Assembly (NCBI GenBank): GCA_012519925.1
Contig: JAAYPF010000024.1
Location: 1 to 44,710 of the forward strand
Source: Clostridiaceae bacterium
GTDB lineage: Bacteria > Bacillota > Clostridia > Acetivibrionales > Acetivibrionaceae
DNA: 44,710 nucleotides
Reading direction: 5' to 3'
Shown here: positions 2,583-29,473 of the stretch, piece after piece
Layout of the letters: every line of letters begins with the position of its first letter
How positions within the stretch are numbered: position 1 is the first letter of the stretch
Notes under the pieces: model-generated
The model's database searches: none
Seen by the model: only the letters and a program-made list of their open reading frames with translations
Told to the model about the DNA's origin: nothing
Translations under genes and position numbers: made by a program

Positions 2583-3190
2583 CAAACTTTTTTTGTCTCT
2601 CCTAAAACCTTTTTTATTTTTCCCATAGCATCAATTGTAACAATAGCTCCTTTTATGAACAATAAGTCTAAAAGCTCTGGTATAGCTGTAATCTCATTAC
2701 TCTTATTATCCGCCTTCACCTGACCAAGAACAAGTTTATCACTGCTGCACCATGCACTCACAATATGAATAGCTTTTTTCAGGCACTTTTGTTTGACGTT
2801 CCTCTCATTGTTTTGCCGTCAATCGCTTCTACATCACCTTCTTTGAGTTGTGTAACTTCCTGCATCCACTATACAAAGCATTTTCAAACTGCATTGGGTC
2901 AACTACGTCTAATACTCGTGCTATTGTAAACCAAGATGGAATTGCATTGGGTAACTCAAGATACTGCCTGAGCCAATCTTCTTTTGCACAAGCCCATTCC
3001 TCCATCTCTCCCCACTCATCACATCTACATATAGTTGCAGCCACGGCAATAAAAGGTACATCCAGCAGTTTATGCTGAATTTTACCTTCTTGTCTTGGGT
3101 CGAAAATCACTGTGAAATAATCAATAAAATTTGTATCTATTCTTTTTTCACCACACTTCCTGCAAATCAAAGAGATATTGTGCATAGGAA
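2583..3190 (-). pseudogene. Decayed ISAs1-family transposase
   Basis: Three pieces in different minus-strand frames read through a DDE transposase of the ISAs1 type. The first (about 2830-3170) carries DPRQEGKIQHKLLD, the conserved N-terminal DPR motif, then CDEWGEMEEWACAKEDWLRQ. The second (about 2750-2865) has AIDGKTMRG with the first catalytic Asp. The third (2583-2770) has AIHIVSAWCSSDKLVLGQVK and VTIDAMG with the second Asp. At least two frameshifts separate the pieces, and everything after the second Asp is lost, so it cannot make active enzyme. It sits directly against the broken ATPase gene at 3148-3483. The left terminal repeat was not resolved. Confidence 0.8.
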
Positions 3191-3483
3191 ACCTCTTCAT
3201 GGGGAGCCGTTCCATCTAAAAGAGCCACCTTTATTGCAGGAATTACTACTCCATCAATGCTGTTATTATCGCTTGAACAGTGCATATATTCTACGTCATA
3301 GCCCCTATCTTCCATCTCTTTACCTATTTTTTTCATAAATGTTGATTTGCCAACTCCTGGGCCACCTTTAATGCAAATTATCCTCGTTGCCTCTTCTTGA
3401 CTCAATATGTAATCATAATAACTAAAAAACCCCTGTGATGTATTACCACCAAGAAACATATGTCTTATTTTACCTTTTGACAT
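3148..3483 (-). pseudogene. 5' fragment of a P-loop ATPase (PRK06851-like), interrupted by IS
   Basis: The start is well formed: ATG at 3483 with GGAGGGG about 6 nt upstream. The first ~95 residues match my recollection of a clostridial ATPase family that begins MSKGKIRHMFLGGNTSQGFF. They carry a Walker A motif GGPGVGKST near residue 40-48 and the family stretch HCSSDNNSIDG. Full members are about 370 residues. After LLDGTAPH the frame leaves the family and runs into the ISAs1-like remnant, stopping at 111 codons. The C-terminal two thirds are not found in the window. The natural role of the family is unknown to me. Confidence 0.75.
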
Positions 3484-3656
3484 GAATACCCCTCCATTGT
3501 GTTTAATTTCCTCAACGATATTTGAAACCTATTACTAAAATATGCAGATGGAGGGTTTATGTGAATAGAAGAACACACAATGACAGTATGCTACTTAGAC
3601 AGGACAAAGTGTTAGCTAAAATTACAATTGTATTTATTAACGTTCATAAATATACT

Positions 3657-3691
3657 AAAACAAGGACAATGAGACTCTCCCATTGTCCTTG
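3657..3691 (-). terminator. Terminator-like hairpin downstream of the NUDIX gene
   Basis: A perfect 11-bp stem (CAAGGACAATG at 3661-3671 with CATTGTCCTTG at 3681-3691) and a 9-nt loop. On the minus strand it is followed by TTTTAG, a weak U-tract. It lies 75 nt after the NUDIX stop codon. Confidence 0.6.
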
Positions 3692-3766
3692 TTGAATTTG
3701 ATATCATGATTTAAAGTATAGCGAACACTAAAAAACATAGTAATATATGACCTTAATTAGTAACTA

Positions 3767-4180
3767 TTAAGGTAATTCTTTGTATTTCTTATAGGATAGA
3801 TTAAGCAAAGCCTTATCCTGACTGTAAGTGATAAGATTCATCGCTTCTTCAATATCAAAAAAACCGCCCTCTTGGAACTTTTCCTTTTCAGAAATGTTAT
3901 ATTTATCGGAATCTGTACTCATAATAAACCACGTAATTTTATTGCAGATAGGCTTTTGTCTAGTAACAGAATAGAATTCGTAACTCGTATCACCGGCTAT
4001 AGATAGAATGTAAGCAATTATTCCACCTTCTTCTAAAACTCTCTTTTGAGCAACTTCAGCAGCATGATCTCCATTTCGCATTACGCCTTTAGGAAATACC
4101 CATTCATCCTTTTCGTTCTTAAGCAAAAAAACTTTGTCCCCAAAAAACACTATACCACCAGCACAATTTCTTAGTATCAT
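3767..4180 (-). CDS. NUDIX hydrolase
   Basis: A 137-aa NUDIX-fold protein expected to hydrolyse a nucleoside diphosphate linked to another moiety; the substrate is not predictable. The chosen start is the ATG at 4180 (MILRNCAGG), preceded by AGGAGG with a 9-nt spacer, which gives a typical family length. The Nudix box lies near residues 34-56 (GVMRNGDHAAEVAQKRVLEE). It departs from the GX5EX7REUXEE consensus: Asp replaces the first Glu and KR replaces RE, while the EE pair is kept. Activity may therefore be altered. The reading frame is open for another 119 codons upstream without a stop (see the separate entry). Confidence 0.85.
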   Translation of the reverse strand: MILRNCAGGIVFFGDKVFLLKNEKDEWVFPKGVMRNGDHAAEVAQKRVLEEGGIIAYILSIAGDTSYEFYSVTRQKPICNKITWFIMSTDSDKYNISEKEKFQEGGFFDIEEAMNLITYSQDKALLNLSYKKYKELP

Positions 4181-4537
4181 AAATTGCAGCCTCCTTTTTT
4201 TGTGTTTTAACACTAATCTTTCATAATGTCGCAAACACGTTTCTATTGTTTTGTGTTTCACAAACTTTTGAAAACAATTTCCATTGCGGAGCTCTTGATC
4301 TAGAGTACATGGTATTCTTCTTACTTTTTCTAGTGTAAATATTTGACCTGTTTTGATATGCTTTTCTGCTTGTTTTGTATTGATGAGATCTGATAGTGCC
4401 TTAATCCTAAGACCTTTGCTATATACTATAATGCGTGAGTTATTTCGTATTCCCTCCTTCCTATATACATTAAATGGAAATTCCAAAAAATAACACGAAA
4501 GGCACTTTCCTAACAATATAGGAAAATGCCTATTCAC
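4181..4537 (-). other. In-frame open extension upstream of the NUDIX gene, possibly a fused small domain
   Basis: The NUDIX frame stays open for 119 codons upstream to an ATG at 4537. Residues such as ALSDLINTKQAEKHIKTGQ and CTLDQELRNGNCFQKF look like real protein, with A/T-rich third positions like the neighbouring genes. A strong AAGGAGGG site lies at about 4452-4459, but no ATG, GTG or TTG follows at a usable distance. Either this is a former separate small gene that lost its start and stop, or a true N-terminal domain. The extreme 5' part overlaps a hairpin at 4500-4535. The family is not recognised. Confidence 0.35.
4500..4535. other. Stem-loop in the leader of the NUDIX transcript
   Basis: AGGCA.TTTCCTA pairs with TAGGAAA.TGCCT around a short loop, with one mismatch. 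On the minus strand it is followed by a T-rich stretch ending TTATTTTTT, so it could act as an attenuator or terminator ahead of the NUDIX gene. There is no known riboswitch signature. Confidence 0.35.
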
Positions 4538-4681
4538 TTAATTCATTATATCATAGCTTACAACCATTGTCAACTTTGGATTTAGCTTGATGCCTAGATA
4601 TATCTGGATTATAGCCAATTAAACAAACTAAATAACAGCCTTCATTTCATGCCCTAATCTCCTATAGTTTTACTTAATCTA

Positions 4682-5644
4682 TTATGGCTTCAATTCATCC
4701 ATTAACATCCTCAGCTTAGTCTCAACAGCAACCGGTATATACTCATGACCAAAATATTTATATACCGCTATTTCCTTTGGACAAGTCAAATTATTGTAGG
4801 CGGCAAAAATTGTTGAAGGTGGTGTTATTTCATCTACCAATCCTACACTAACCCAGGTCCTACATTTTATCCTTGATGCAAGGTTCATAATATCAAAATA
4901 AGAAAGCGTCTTTTTAACTTGAACTTCAATTTCAGGTTTGGCATTTCTTCTTAAGTATTGGACAATTTCCTGATAAGGTCCTTGAGGAGCAATATCAACA
5001 GCTCGCTCAAAATTTGACAGGTACGGGTAATCAGCTACTGCAACTTTAGGTATATCGGATAAGGCAGCAGCAGCTAAAGATAATGCTCCCCCTTGGCTTC
5101 CTCCCATCACAGCAATTCTAGTCTTATCCACTTCCGGCATGGATGCCAAAACCTCTAATGCTCGAACCGCATCTAAATAAACTGCTCTGTAGTAGTATTC
5201 CTCAGGGTTTAATATTCCTTTACACATCCATCCTGGAACAAATCCCGTTGAAGAAACAATATTATCAACACTATTTCCTTGCTGACCACGTACTAGCATA
5301 TTCATTACAACATAACCTTTTAAAGCTAAATCCACCACTTCATTGACCATACCTTCCGATGCCCAATTGTATCCGTGATATAATACTATTCCGGGACACA
5401 AGCTCTCTCCCTTAGGTATTGCCAACCATCCTTCAATATTTGCATTCTCAAACCCTAAATAGGATACTCTGTAGACCTTTACGCCCTTAACAGGATAGTC
5501 ATAGGGTGAACGTTCGAATTTTAACGGTACTTGAGCAAGCTTTTTAAGACTATTATCCCAAAACTCCTCAAAATCAGGCTCTTTTGTAAGTTTAGGTTTG
5601 TATTCTTTAAGTGCCTCAAGTGGCATATCATATTGTAGTGCCAT
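4682..5644 (-). CDS. CE7 acetyl xylan esterase / cephalosporin-C deacetylase family
   Basis: A 320-aa alpha/beta hydrolase of carbohydrate esterase family 7 (AXE1), which removes acetyl groups from short xylo-oligosaccharides and other acetylated small molecules. The catalytic triad is visible: Ser in GGSQGG (about residue 183), Asp in GLVDEITPP (about 270) and His in FGHEY (about 300). The family RGQ motif is present in VRGQQG near residue 115. No signal peptide is present, so it should act in the cytoplasm on imported oligosaccharides, as other CE7 enzymes do. The ATG start has AAGGTGGAG 5 nt upstream. It fits with the dockerin-bearing esterases further right, which would work outside the cell. 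Confidence 0.92.
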   Translation of the reverse strand: MALQYDMPLEALKEYKPKLTKEPDFEEFWDNSLKKLAQVPLKFERSPYDYPVKGVKVYRVSYLGFENANIEGWLAIPKGESLCPGIVLYHGYNWASEGMVNEVVDLALKGYVVMNMLVRGQQGNSVDNIVSSTGFVPGWMCKGILNPEEYYYRAVYLDAVRALEVLASMPEVDKTRIAVMGGSQGGALSLAAAALSDIPKVAVADYPYLSNFERAVDIAPQGPYQEIVQYLRRNAKPEIEVQVKKTLSYFDIMNLASRIKCRTWVSVGLVDEITPPSTIFAAYNNLTCPKEIAVYKYFGHEYIPVAVETKLRMLMDELKP

Positions 5645-20528: not shown

Positions 20529-22034
<1,506 letters not shown>

Positions 22035-22272
22035 CTATTAACTAGTAAAAATTGTCATTACCCTATATAGCAATACTTTTTTAAGTAAAAAAGTATATAG
22101 GTAAACATCAACCAGTTTAAAAATTGGGGTATGGCACTATTTTGATTAACACTAGCACAATACCCCTGTTTTACATCCGTTTCTAACCCATTATGATCTA
22201 GTTTTGGATTAAAACTTTATCCTAAATGATAAGCTCTACCCGTGGCTAGAAAACTTATAGCCGTGCTATAGC

Positions 22273-24357
<2,085 letters not shown>

Positions 24358-26496: not shown

Positions 26497-26721
26497 ATGG
26501 ATAAAAGTAAAATAGACAGGATAAACGAATTATCAAAGAAGTCTAAAACAACAGGTCTGACTCCTGCTGAGAAACAAGAGCAGCAAGAGCTTAGAAGTGA
26601 ATATATTAAGAGTTTTAGAAGCAACTTAAAATCTACACTCGATACAATTGTTATAGTAGATGAAAAGGGCAATAAAAGCCCCTTAAAGCAAAAAAGCAAC
26701 ATAGCAAAAGAAAAGCATTGA
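26497..26721 (+). CDS. DUF896 small protein (YnzC family)
   Basis: A 74-aa cytoplasmic protein beginning MDKSKIDRINELSKKSK, followed by TGLTPAEKQEQQELRSEYIKS, the signature of the DUF896/YnzC family of two-helix bundles. The function of the family is not settled; some members are linked to the SOS response. I chose the ATG at 26497 with GGAAGTG upstream; the frame is open 25 codons earlier with no ribosome site. It is one of few plus-strand genes here and is transcribed divergently from pgcA. Confidence 0.88.
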   Translation: MDKSKIDRINELSKKSKTTGLTPAEKQEQQELRSEYIKSFRSNLKSTLDTIVIVDEKGNKSPLKQKSNIAKEKH

Positions 26722-26943: not shown

Positions 26944-27197
26944 TTTTTGCATAAATCACATATTACTTAAGTTTATTAGTAGCTATAAAAATAATTAAAT
27001 AGTGTAAAATATTAAGATTTTATGCGAATTTATTCATATTATCTATGTGTTTTGCAACAACAACCTTATTATCAGTTTGTTGAGGATATTCTCAATAATT
27101 CTGTGTTTTAACATCTGCACAATATATGCTATAATGATAATGTAATACATTCTACCTCCCTTAAACCTAAGGTATAAGGAGATAAATAGGCTTATGA

Positions 27198-27290
27198 AAC
27201 AGGGCAAAATCATTGAAAAATGATGACGCAAAGCTGTGGGTCTAAGTTAAGGATAAACATTCTTGATATGATCGCCAAGCTGCCATTAAA
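27198..27290 (+). ncRNA. Cyclic-di-GMP-I (GEMM-I) riboswitch aptamer, orphan
   Basis: The conserved blocks appear in order: AGGGCAAA, a hairpin with a GAAA loop (ATCATT GAAAAA TGAT), GACGCAAAGC, a variable second stem, then GCCAAGCTGCC at 27274-27284. These hold the tetraloop, its receptor and the two ligand-contacting segments of the class I c-di-GMP aptamer. A terminator-like hairpin follows at 27328-27361, as an expression platform would. No gene lies downstream on the plus strand; the next genes are the convergent Tad pilus genes. It may have lost its gene, make a small RNA, or act on the converging transcript. Confidence 0.85.
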
Positions 27291-27327
27291 AGTTCTGTTT
27301 AGTCTCTTTAAAATATATTTGGGAATA

Positions 27328-27361
27328 GGTCATATTAATTTCCTTATACCGCATTTTTTTT
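27328..27361 (+). terminator. Possible riboswitch-controlled terminator
   Basis: GGT.ATA pairs with TATACC (27328-27350, one bulge), followed by GCA and a run of eight T. It is weak as a hairpin but correctly placed about 40 nt after the c-di-GMP aptamer. Confidence 0.4.
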
Positions 27362-27388
27362 AGATAATTATAGATTTTATTATTATAG

Positions 27389-27427
27389 AAAAATCAAGTG
27401 GATCCATCTCCACTTGATTTTTTATTT
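27389..27427. terminator. Strong bidirectional terminator
   Basis: A perfect 12-bp stem (AAATCAAGTGGA with TCCACTTGATTT), a 6-nt loop, and T-runs on both strands. It ends transcription from the riboswitch side and could also end the Tad operon coming from the right. Confidence 0.85.
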
Positions 27428-27428
27428 T

Positions 27429-27492
27429 GCCCCTTTCGAACGAAGTGAAAGAAGCAAAAAAGAAGGGGCTCAATACCCCGAAGTTTTTATTT
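27429..27492. repeat. Two-hairpin palindromic repeat, family A, copy 4 (tandem)
   Basis: Starts GCCCCTTTCGAACGAAGTG. Hairpin one pairs CTTTC with GAAAG; hairpin two pairs GGGG with CCCC, followed by GAAGTTTTTATTT. It is followed by a second copy at a 65-bp period. Confidence 0.8.
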
Positions 27493-27493
27493 C

Positions 27494-27553
27494 GCCCCTT
27501 TCGAACGAAGTGAAAGAAGCAAAAAAGAAGGGGCTCAATGCCCCCAGAACCTT
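27494..27553. repeat. Two-hairpin palindromic repeat, family A, copy 5 (tandem)
   Basis: The first ~50 bp match copy 4 with one difference, indicating a recent tandem duplication. It ends against the tadC stop codon at 27561. Confidence 0.8.
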
Positions 27554-27560
27554 TGTTTAC

Positions 27561-28481
27561 CTACTTTGTGAATGTATAAATCACCCTAATTACTACAGGT
27601 CCAATAAGTACTGAAAATATAGTTGGAAAAATAAATAAAACCATTGGTATTAGCATTTTCACCGGTGCTTTCATAGCTTTCTCCTTAGCCCTCTGCCTTC
27701 TTTTCTCTCGCATCTGCTCCGATTGAATTCTAAGCACATTACCAATACTAACCCCTAGCTGATCTGCCTGTATAATGGAACCTACAAATGTAGTCAGATC
27801 GTGAATACCTACTCTATCAGCCATATCCTTTAAAGCATCTTTTTTCTGTTTCCCTACTTTCATCTCCTGAATAACATTTTCAAACTCATAAGCAATAGGT
27901 CCGGGCATCTTGTCAACAACTTTTGCTAAGGCTCCATCAAATCCAAGACCAGCTTCAACACTAACTGTCAGTAAATCCAATACATCAGGAAGTGAGTTCG
28001 AAATTTCTTTTTGTCTTTGTGCTATTTTTTTATTTAGCAATAAATTCGGGAACAACAACCCTAAACATATCTCAATTATTCCAATAAAAATAATGCTTCT
28101 GATATCCAACCCTAAATAGTGACATATACCTGCCGTTATGAACGGTAAAACCAAAACTACTATAACCTGAATATTTATCCAATCCTTCATTAATAGATTA
28201 AAAGGATTTCCCGCTTTAATTACTTTCTTTTCAAACACAGATTTAAACTCTTTAGGGGTCACCTTTAATATTATTTTGCTAATATCATCTAGTATAGGAC
28301 GTATTACTCTCACAAACAGAGGCTGATTTAATTCATAATCCAAATTTTTAATATCTTCCTTTGCAATTTTGTCTAGTCTAATGCTTATAACCTTTTTATT
28401 TCTGTAGAACACCCCTACAAAAGCATATACTATAAGGTATGACGAAATAAAAATGGATACCAAAAGCAAATATATAATCAC
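27561..28481 (-). CDS. tadC: Tad/Flp pilus inner-membrane protein TadC
   Basis: A 306-aa polytopic membrane protein of the type II secretion F (GspF/TadC) family, part of the platform that assembles Flp pili. Membrane segments lie near the N-terminus (about 1-22), near 110-150 and at the C-terminus. The conserved cytoplasmic T2SSF segment reads SNSLPDVLDLLTVSVEAGLG and IQEMKVGKQKKDAL. I chose a GTG at 28481 with GAGGTG 7 nt upstream; an upstream in-frame GTG at 28496 would overlap tadB. It is the last gene of the Tad operon, 12 nt after tadB. Confidence 0.9.
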   Translation of the reverse strand: MIIYLLLVSIFISSYLIVYAFVGVFYRNKKVISIRLDKIAKEDIKNLDYELNQPLFVRVIRPILDDISKIILKVTPKEFKSVFEKKVIKAGNPFNLLMKDWINIQVIVVLVLPFITAGICHYLGLDIRSIIFIGIIEICLGLLFPNLLLNKKIAQRQKEISNSLPDVLDLLTVSVEAGLGFDGALAKVVDKMPGPIAYEFENVIQEMKVGKQKKDALKDMADRVGIHDLTTFVGSIIQADQLGVSIGNVLRIQSEQMREKRRQRAKEKAMKAPVKMLIPMVLFIFPTIFSVLIGPVVIRVIYTFTK

Positions 28482-28492
28482 GACTTTACACC

Positions 28493-29473
28493 TCACACTT
28501 CGATTTTTACAATCTTGCCAATAAAGTATATACCAATGAACTCCATAAACATCGAAAAACCGAGTATTACAAGACCTATTGGGTCTGTAAAAAGCACCAT
28601 TATATGGCTTCTATTTATGAGAAATAGTATTAATGTAAGTGCTGGTGGAAGCAATGCTATTATCATTCCCGACATTCTACCCTGAGCGGTTACTGTCTTA
28701 ACTTCACCCTTTATTCGTATCCTTTCTCGTATAGTAGAAGAAATATTGTCTAGAACCTCAGAAAGGTTCCCCCCTACCTGTCTTTGGATCAACACAGCGG
28801 TTACAACTAATTCAAGGTCATCACTCTTTACACGGGTGACAAGGTTTTCAAGTGCCTTTTCCGTAGTTGTCCCAAAATTTACCTCTTTTTGCAGTTGGGT
28901 AAATTCCTCAGCCATAGGACCTGTCATCTCCTTACTTACTATATCAACCGCCTGAAAAAAACTATATCCTGCTTTTAAAGAATTGGATATTAGTACAATA
29001 GCGTCACAAAGTTGCTCATTTAAAAATCTAATTCTTTTCTTAATCTTTATTTTCAGGTACAAATTCGGAAAATACCATCCTACAATCCCTCCTGCAATAG
29101 CAAATAGTACCGCAAAAGAGCTCGAACTCACCAATGCAAATATAAAAGTACCAAATACGAAAAAAAGTATAATGCTAACCGTAATATACTCCTCGGGCTT
29201 TAGAAGGATGTGTGCCCTCTGCAATTCTAGCTGGATTTTTTTCTTATATCCATCTAAAGCTTTTGCATCCTTTACTCCTCGAGCAATAAAGCCTAGACCT
29301 GCTTTATACTCCTTCTGTTTGCTTTTTCTCTTTTCTTCTACTCCGATGTCTAATCTATTGGTATACTTTGACAAACGCATAATTGGAGTCTGTTTTCCTA
29401 TTAAAACTTTAAAGATTTGATATGCAAACAGCAAAACACTTATAAATGTTGAAATAAGGATAAAATTTATCAT
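28493..29473 (-). CDS. tadB: Tad/Flp pilus inner-membrane protein TadB
   Basis: A 326-aa GspF-type membrane protein that pairs with TadC to form the pilus assembly platform around the TadA motor. Predicted membrane helices lie near residues 2-20, 90-130 and at the C-terminus (260-320). The T2SSF core contains LCDAIVLISNSLKAGYSFFQA and RQVGGNLSEVLDNIS. The ATG start has AAGGAAGG about 8 nt upstream. It lies between tadA and tadC with close spacing, as in other Tad loci. Confidence 0.9.
   Translation of the reverse strand: MINFILISTFISVLLFAYQIFKVLIGKQTPIMRLSKYTNRLDIGVEEKRKSKQKEYKAGLGFIARGVKDAKALDGYKKKIQLELQRAHILLKPEEYITVSIILFFVFGTFIFALVSSSSFAVLFAIAGGIVGWYFPNLYLKIKIKKRIRFLNEQLCDAIVLISNSLKAGYSFFQAVDIVSKEMTGPMAEEFTQLQKEVNFGTTTEKALENLVTRVKSDDLELVVTAVLIQRQVGGNLSEVLDNISSTIRERIRIKGEVKTVTAQGRMSGMIIALLPPALTLILFLINRSHIMVLFTDPIGLVILGFSMFMEFIGIYFIGKIVKIEV

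Follow-up and report, generated by a model that had tools for sequence, protein, structure and literature searches.

A conserved family of putative stand-alone c-di-GMP riboswitch RNAs in clostridia

A c-di-GMP-I aptamer convergent to a tad operon

The window, i.e., the whole stretch of 44,710 nucleotides analyzed here, holds a c-di-GMP-I aptamer (RF01051) on the plus strand at 27193–27287, matched by the Rfam covariance model with 76.1 bits (gathering score 35, E value 2.6e-13). The first-pass annotation had described such a riboswitch from position 27198 onward; the Rfam search recovered the same GEMM-I aptamer, with a match beginning 5 nt earlier. The core letters GGCAAA, GACGCAAA, and UCUA occupy invariant or nearly invariant columns in an alignment of 41 sequences, and they include the ligand-contacting places of the Vc2 structure. 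Based on the RF01051 match, the aptamer in the window is real, and its binding of c-di-GMP is predicted. No other Rfam family scored above its cut-off in the window.

The convergent neighbor, outside the RNA unit, is tadC on the minus strand (27561–28496; T2SSF, PF00482), assigned by frame and domain match. The minus-strand genes tadC, tadB, and tadA (with T2SSF, T2SSF, and T2SSE domains, respectively) all face the RNA. An open-frame survey of the window found no plausible plus-strand gene downstream of the RNA, the sole longer plus frame (28983–29420) being antisense inside a tad gene. Both the orientation toward the 3' end of the tad operon and the missing plus-strand gene had been noted in the first-pass annotation. 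Upstream of the RNA lie a DUF896 gene (26497–26718, plus strand) and, at 20529–23904, two esterase-like genes whose products carry CBM6 and dockerin domains and are likely cellulosomal enzymes. A 92-aa frame from the same cluster as the DUF896 gene is also found upstream of a related RNA in another genome (G001, locus L116).

The putative transcription unit starts from a promoter at 27108–27135 consisting of TTAACA, a 16-nt spacer, and the extended -10 element TGCTATAAT (27127–27135; TATAAT with TG), which together match in 11 of 12 positions. With the start site placed from the -10 element, the predicted 5' leader spans 27142–27170 and includes the C-rich segment CUACCUCCC (27152–27160). At the other end, the 3' arm AUUUCCUUAUACC and its U-tract (27338–27361) form a predicted intrinsic terminator and probable RNA 3' end, as judged from pairing and from the point where conservation ends in most BLASTN matches. 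A terminator-like platform had been read from the sequence at this place; it exists, but it is not a simple local hairpin, since CCTTATACC (27342–27350), located before the run of eight U (27354–27361), pairs with GGTATAAGG (27171–27179) upstream of the aptamer.

The second strong terminator, placed about 25 nt further on by the first reading, begins 27 nt past the end of the 8-U run (27388–27423, -16.0 kcal/mol). It is shared with the convergent tad operon and could act on both strands, since its A/U symmetry makes it possibly bidirectional. Among the 44 related loci described below, a second terminator of -8 kcal/mol or better within 131 nt was present in 18, compared with 0.6 expected from shuffled sequences, and was therefore rejected as a universal part of the RNA. 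Next to it lies a 65-nt tandem repeat of 1.9 copies (27419–27544), which on the minus strand yields terminator-like hairpins after tadC. Tandem repeats had been suggested to have displaced a gene once located behind the riboswitch; the repeat belongs to a dispersed family, with more copies in the window's genome (G000) and its relatives, that is separate from the conserved unit.

Recurrence, gene context, and conservation

Using 27100–27550 as a BLASTN query against 60 relatives, we retrieved 44 loci with their flanks, located the RNA in each, and aligned them. Most matches began at or near the -10 element and ended at the first U-run rather than at the second terminator, and the repeats were matched separately elsewhere. 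A covariance model built from 41 of these loci was then searched against 58 genomes of the order. It returned 44 members with 133.7–200.5 bits, all spanning model positions 1–182, in 19 of the 58 genomes. The next listed match had 80.9 bits, where the ordinary c-di-GMP-I aptamers begin; as the scores of the members are high by construction, it is the gap from 81 to 134 bits that is informative.

Within the bacterium's own family, 32 members occurred in 13 of 14 genomes, with three copies in seven genomes, two in five, and one in one; the genome without a member is 55% complete. Genome G008 has one member copy (G008:C1:1273245-1273434), and G001 has three. A second family had 11 members in five of five genomes, a third had one member in its one genome, and the remaining 38 genomes had none. 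Of the five c-di-GMP-I aptamers in the window's genome, three are members and the other two are arranged in tandem, approximately 90 nt apart (G000:C86:11751-12009), with similar close pairs in relatives. In a search of 391 genomes from the class at an E value of 1e-16, eight genomes of the own family matched, together with one locus from another order (L245, 89.6 bits). No P0 arms are present at this locus, and the aptamer is followed by a same-strand frame preceded by a ribosome-binding-like site; we therefore counted it as an ordinary riboswitch and not as a family member. A gapped pattern run against named genomes found 29 stretches, located in Acetivibrio mesophilus, A. straminisolvens, A. 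alkalicellulosi, Herbivorax sp., Pseudobacteroides cellulosolvens, and clostridial MAGs. A phage or viral origin was rejected, as BLASTN against phages and the pattern search of viral contigs gave no matches. No description of such an RNA family was found in the literature covered, a coverage that lay outside most subscription journals.

Riboswitches usually control the gene behind them. Based on in-house frame calling, the next downstream gene was convergent in 38 of the 44 member loci, and in one (L113) no next gene was visible before the contig end. A same-strand next gene was present in five loci, at a distance of 444–635 nt in four of them (L097, L098, L099, and L102, with four non-homologous genes); the fifth is the most divergent member, L137, where ilvD lies 143 nt downstream. 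The orientation count involves some judgement, as the 78-aa plus frame of L120 and RNA-overlapping frames in L107, L117, and L118 were set aside. Plus frames in L103, L109, and L110 were also disregarded, since the opposite strand there carries a conserved gene for a c-di-AMP receptor. For comparison, 27 of 29 ordinary c-di-GMP-I aptamers, a subset taken as one per genome, had a same-strand gene, and the other two had a minus frame overlapping the aptamer. A controlled same-strand gene directly downstream, as would define a cis-acting riboswitch, is hence not a feature of these loci.

The same comparison bears on whether the RNA could be what remains of an ordinary cis riboswitch after loss of its gene, as had been proposed from the sequence. 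L137 with its ilvD gene speaks for this. The conservation of the RNA points the other way. In 19 matching-locus pairs, hand-picked within locus groups, the RNA body was 71–98% identical (median 90%), whereas the 150 nt upstream were 41–82% (median 66%) and the 80 nt downstream 19–83% identical (median 53%). With the RNA body conserved above its flanks, the arrangement recurring in 44 loci of 19 genomes, and a near same-strand gene commonly absent, decay does not fit. The relic reading is largely refuted by the recurrence under the covariance model and the flank comparison, and we regard it as scarcely credible. The L137 region with ilvD (3013–4843) may represent an ancestral or an independent cis arrangement.

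The members fall into groups with characteristic surroundings. In group A (eight members, including the window), a phosphoglucomutase gene is nearby in five, and the next gene is tadC of a tad locus in four (window, L115, L118, and L119), the DegU-like gene of a DegU/DegS-like pair in three (L116, L117, and L120, the last with its 78-aa plus frame ahead of the DegU-like gene), and another gene in one (L122). The 13 members of group B are located before a convergent recO and have a PilZ gene upstream that is read divergently from the RNA (2625–3320 in L124, with genes of its cluster in the other group B loci); PilZ is a c-di-GMP receptor domain. The 11 members of group C are mostly beside an AMMECR1/LigB gene and face varied genes. 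Group C RNAs also face, or are close to, a gene for a c-di-AMP receptor (PF06153), which is located at 3291–3617 in L106 and has matches in L103, L104, L109, and L110.

These surroundings argue against an antisense regulator of pili, which had been among the roles suggested initially: tadC is the next gene in only four of the eight members of this locus type, and the other 36 members are elsewhere. Antisense action on tad was thus rejected because tad is not the conserved neighbor across loci. A more general cis device would use c-di-GMP-controlled read-through to produce antisense RNA to whichever gene is convergent, or transcription interference with it. The convergent orientation in 38 of 44 loci would suit such a device, and the antisense RNA AspocR offers a precedent (PMC8079631). 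We nevertheless consider it improbable, as the convergent gene varies between groups (tadC, DegU-like, recO, beta-lactamase-like, and c-di-AMP receptor genes) and also within groups A and C, so that no conserved opposite-strand target gene of the AspocR type is present. Moreover, in 18 loci the second terminator follows, and four second-family members and L137 are without a convergent neighbor.

The start of the unit is conserved as well. TGNTAYAAT was found in 42 of 44 members; its distance to the 5' arm is 30–37 nt in 41 of these and 45 nt in the remaining one. L137 matches this element less well, and L111 does not match it. In the 19 matching-locus pairs, the 5' leader was 84–100% identical. 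Each group has its own C-rich leader segment, namely CUACCUCCC in group A, UUUCCUCCC in group B, UACUCCCC in group C, and AUUCCCC and ACCUCCU in two second-family sets. In group C, 25 nt of the leader are identical in six of 11 members from three genera.

An aptamer AUG (27194) behind AAGGAG is also conserved and would encode a peptide of 9–10 residues, e.g., MKQGKIIEK, with 9 or 10 codons from the AUG in 34 of 43 members checked. That the RNA serves as a short mRNA is nonetheless very unlikely, as the frame lies inside the aptamer and is largely dictated by its conserved letters. The spacing between AAGGAG and AUG is long (approximately 11–17 nt by eye), eight members have 16–47 codons, and one has no such AUG.

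Two predicted alternative folds and their energetics

Pairing was analyzed in alignments of 41 of the 44 members, with L111 left out for its divergence and L112 and L129 for an insertion. The latter two belong to group B, and one comes from the window's genome; their insertion of approximately 50 nt follows the aptamer part and precedes the 3' arm.

The alignments are compatible with two sets of helices. In Fold I, a long-range closing helix P0ext (GGUAUAAGGAGAUA/UAUUUCCUUAUACC; 5' arm GGUAUAAGGAGAU at 27171–27183 in the window), P0c (GACUUAU/AUAGGUC), and P1' (AAACAG/CUGUUU) were paired in 99.3%, 92.5%, and 98.4% of alignment cells, respectively. In the window, the 5' strand of P0c is GGCUUAU (27189–27195), which pairs with AUAGGUC (27325–27331) and partly coincides with the 5' strand that canonical P1 uses in Fold II. 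In Fold II, a 7-bp P0 was paired in 100% of cells, P0b (GAGAUAUAAAUAG/CUGUUUAUACUC) and outer P1 in 92.6%, inner P1 in 100%, and a local hairpin H in 89.9%. The canonical aptamer helix P1 is present in Fold II only; its 3' strand is CAUUAAAAGU (27284–27293), with AUG/CAU paired in 100% of cells. Between the two folds, CUGUUUAGUCUC (27295–27306) has alternative partners: its CUGUUU pairs with AAACAG (27197–27202) as P1', or the whole segment pairs with the P0b 5' strand GAGAUAAAUAG (27179–27189). Hairpin H (GGGAAU/AUUUCC, 27321–27343) is likewise an alternative that competes for the 3' arm. Because P0b crosses P0c, and P1' and P0b share CUGUUU, Folds I and II are mutually exclusive as nested folds.

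Partner-specific signal was assessed by swapping partners between sequences. P0c was more stable with its own partner (mean -5.6 vs. -5.2 kcal/mol, with none of 500 swaps as good), and P0b showed a small effect (-9.2 vs. -9.1 kcal/mol, with seven of 500 as good), although the kinship of the sequences can inflate these signals even without structure. P1 and H showed no partner-specific signal (263 and 445 of 500 swaps as good, respectively). P0ext is nearly invariant, with a single double change (U-A to C-G, in L137), and covariation support for P0 is therefore thin. RNAalifold, run unaided, predicted P0 (11 bp) and the aptamer helices.

Folding of 43 of the 44 members (L111, without a -10 match, was left out) predicted that P0ext dominates. 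In the unconstrained ensemble, its probability was at least 0.80 and that of H at most 0.02 in 42 of 43 members, with L136 as the exception. The minimum-energy folds of the window RNA, L100, and L124 also contained P1' and a P0c-like helix. Enforcing the canonical aptamer helices P1 and P2 in the full RNA cost a median of 7.9 kcal/mol; when P0b and P0 were imposed as well, a median of 4.0 kcal/mol was added. The two folds could be compared in 40 of the 43 members. In a partial transcript ending just past CUGUUU, forced Folds I and II differed by a median of only 0.1 kcal/mol (n = 40), and Fold II had the lower energy of the two in 17 of these 40; it was the overall minimum-energy fold in two of 43. 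Ligand binding at about 1 nM is quoted in PMC3627812. Binding of this strength could decide between the nearly equal folds during transcription. On the other hand, P0ext persists in the energy model when the aptamer is formed, and H has hardly any weight, so that switching may not extend to the terminator.

In the computed ensemble, the C-rich leader segment was predicted to be unpaired with a probability of at least 0.79 in 38 of 43 members. A hairpin between the leader and the 5' arm that would hide this segment was considered and rejected, as a comparison of 16 leaders with their shuffled versions gave it no clear advantage (p 0.08–0.91).

Possible action as a free RNA

Taken together, we somewhat favor the view that the window encodes a stand-alone c-di-GMP-sensing regulatory RNA of approximately 220 nt, one of three paralogues, which runs from its own promoter to its own terminator and most likely has its output in trans. 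Of the roles offered in the first-pass annotation, a c-di-GMP-controlled small RNA fits best, given a stand-alone unit conserved in 44 loci with a promoter match in 42. Judging from conservation, transcription would proceed from the extended -10 element to the unit's own terminator. Without ligand, computed energies favor Fold I, in which a P0ext of 13–14 bp would close the molecule, with P0c inside it and P1' occupying the 5' junction of the aptamer. c-di-GMP bound during transcription would be expected to shift the RNA to Fold II, where canonical P1 and P0b would form instead and hairpin H could take the 3' arm. Such a switch would alter the 3' end, the stability, or the availability of the RNA. 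The output in trans would be provided by the C-rich leader, which differs per paralogue group and is suited to G-rich Shine-Dalgarno regions.

RoxS and FsrA are established examples of Gram-positive small RNAs whose C-rich single-stranded regions bind to Shine-Dalgarno sequences (PMC10433868). The C-rich leader segment, predicted to be single-stranded, would resemble these regions.

An RNA of this kind could instead act as a reservoir or sink, buffering c-di-GMP by virtue of its abundance and stability, as has been proposed for the Bdellovibrio merRNA (PMC3627812). The RNA is stand-alone with no gene behind it, as merRNA is, and its closed 5'-3' helix could stabilize it. A sink, however, needs the aptamer only and leaves unexplained both the conserved group-specific C-rich leader and the 3' module with its alternative partners; we consider it a lesser possibility. 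That the leader is conserved and group-specific points to base-pairing targets over mere storage.

The closest precedents are merRNA and EutX/Rli55. The merRNA of Bdellovibrio bacteriovorus is non-coding and stands alone as well; it contains a c-di-GMP riboswitch and is followed by no conserved ORF. It is a single RNA of 445 nt, reported by its authors as not conserved outside Bdellovibrio (PMC3627812). The present RNAs, likened to it by description and not by sequence, are approximately 220 nt long, have 44 members with up to three paralogues per genome, and possess a conserved 3' module and a C-rich leader. EutX/Rli55 are likewise trans-acting RNAs with a riboswitch, whose orientation need not match that of the target and whose ligand chooses the 3' end, but they carry a B12 aptamer, sequester the ANTAR protein EutV through a binding site in the RNA, and lie near the target operon (PMC5821096, PMC8079631). 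SreA/SreB and AspocR are also riboswitch RNAs acting on other transcripts, although SreA retains cis control of the operon behind it and AspocR is antisense to the neighboring pocR (PMC8079631). The Bc1 riboswitch of Bacillus thuringiensis shares the c-di-GMP-I aptamer and has two terminators 28 bp apart, but it is a cis riboswitch ahead of mcpE (PMC11218506).

More broadly, the 44 members might constitute a multi-paralogue class of c-di-GMP-gated small RNAs acting in trans, with one sensor-switch body and group-specific C-rich seeds; this we put forward tentatively. If true, these clostridia would have a post-transcriptional c-di-GMP regulon run by free RNAs and not by proteins or leader riboswitches. 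To our knowledge, stand-alone riboswitches have been rare single cases (merRNA and EutX/Rli55). Here they form a conserved family, which outnumbers the ordinary c-di-GMP-I aptamers in the window's genome (three of five). This suggests that a c-di-GMP sensor can work as a free RNA, beyond its use as a switch ahead of a gene, and whether a second messenger acts through a free riboswitch RNA is now a directly testable question.

Targets were sought as exact 11-mer complements of the three leader cores in three genomes of the genus, a search that weaker pairing would escape. For groups A, C, and B, this yielded 8, 16, and 21 matches, respectively (RNA genes included), compared with 10, 12, and 9 for reversed controls, and no 11-mer target was shared by orthologues in these three genomes. 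Two group A matches (L200 and L206) were located at Shine-Dalgarno sites, in front of genes that, by eye, we take to encode acetolactate synthase subunits.
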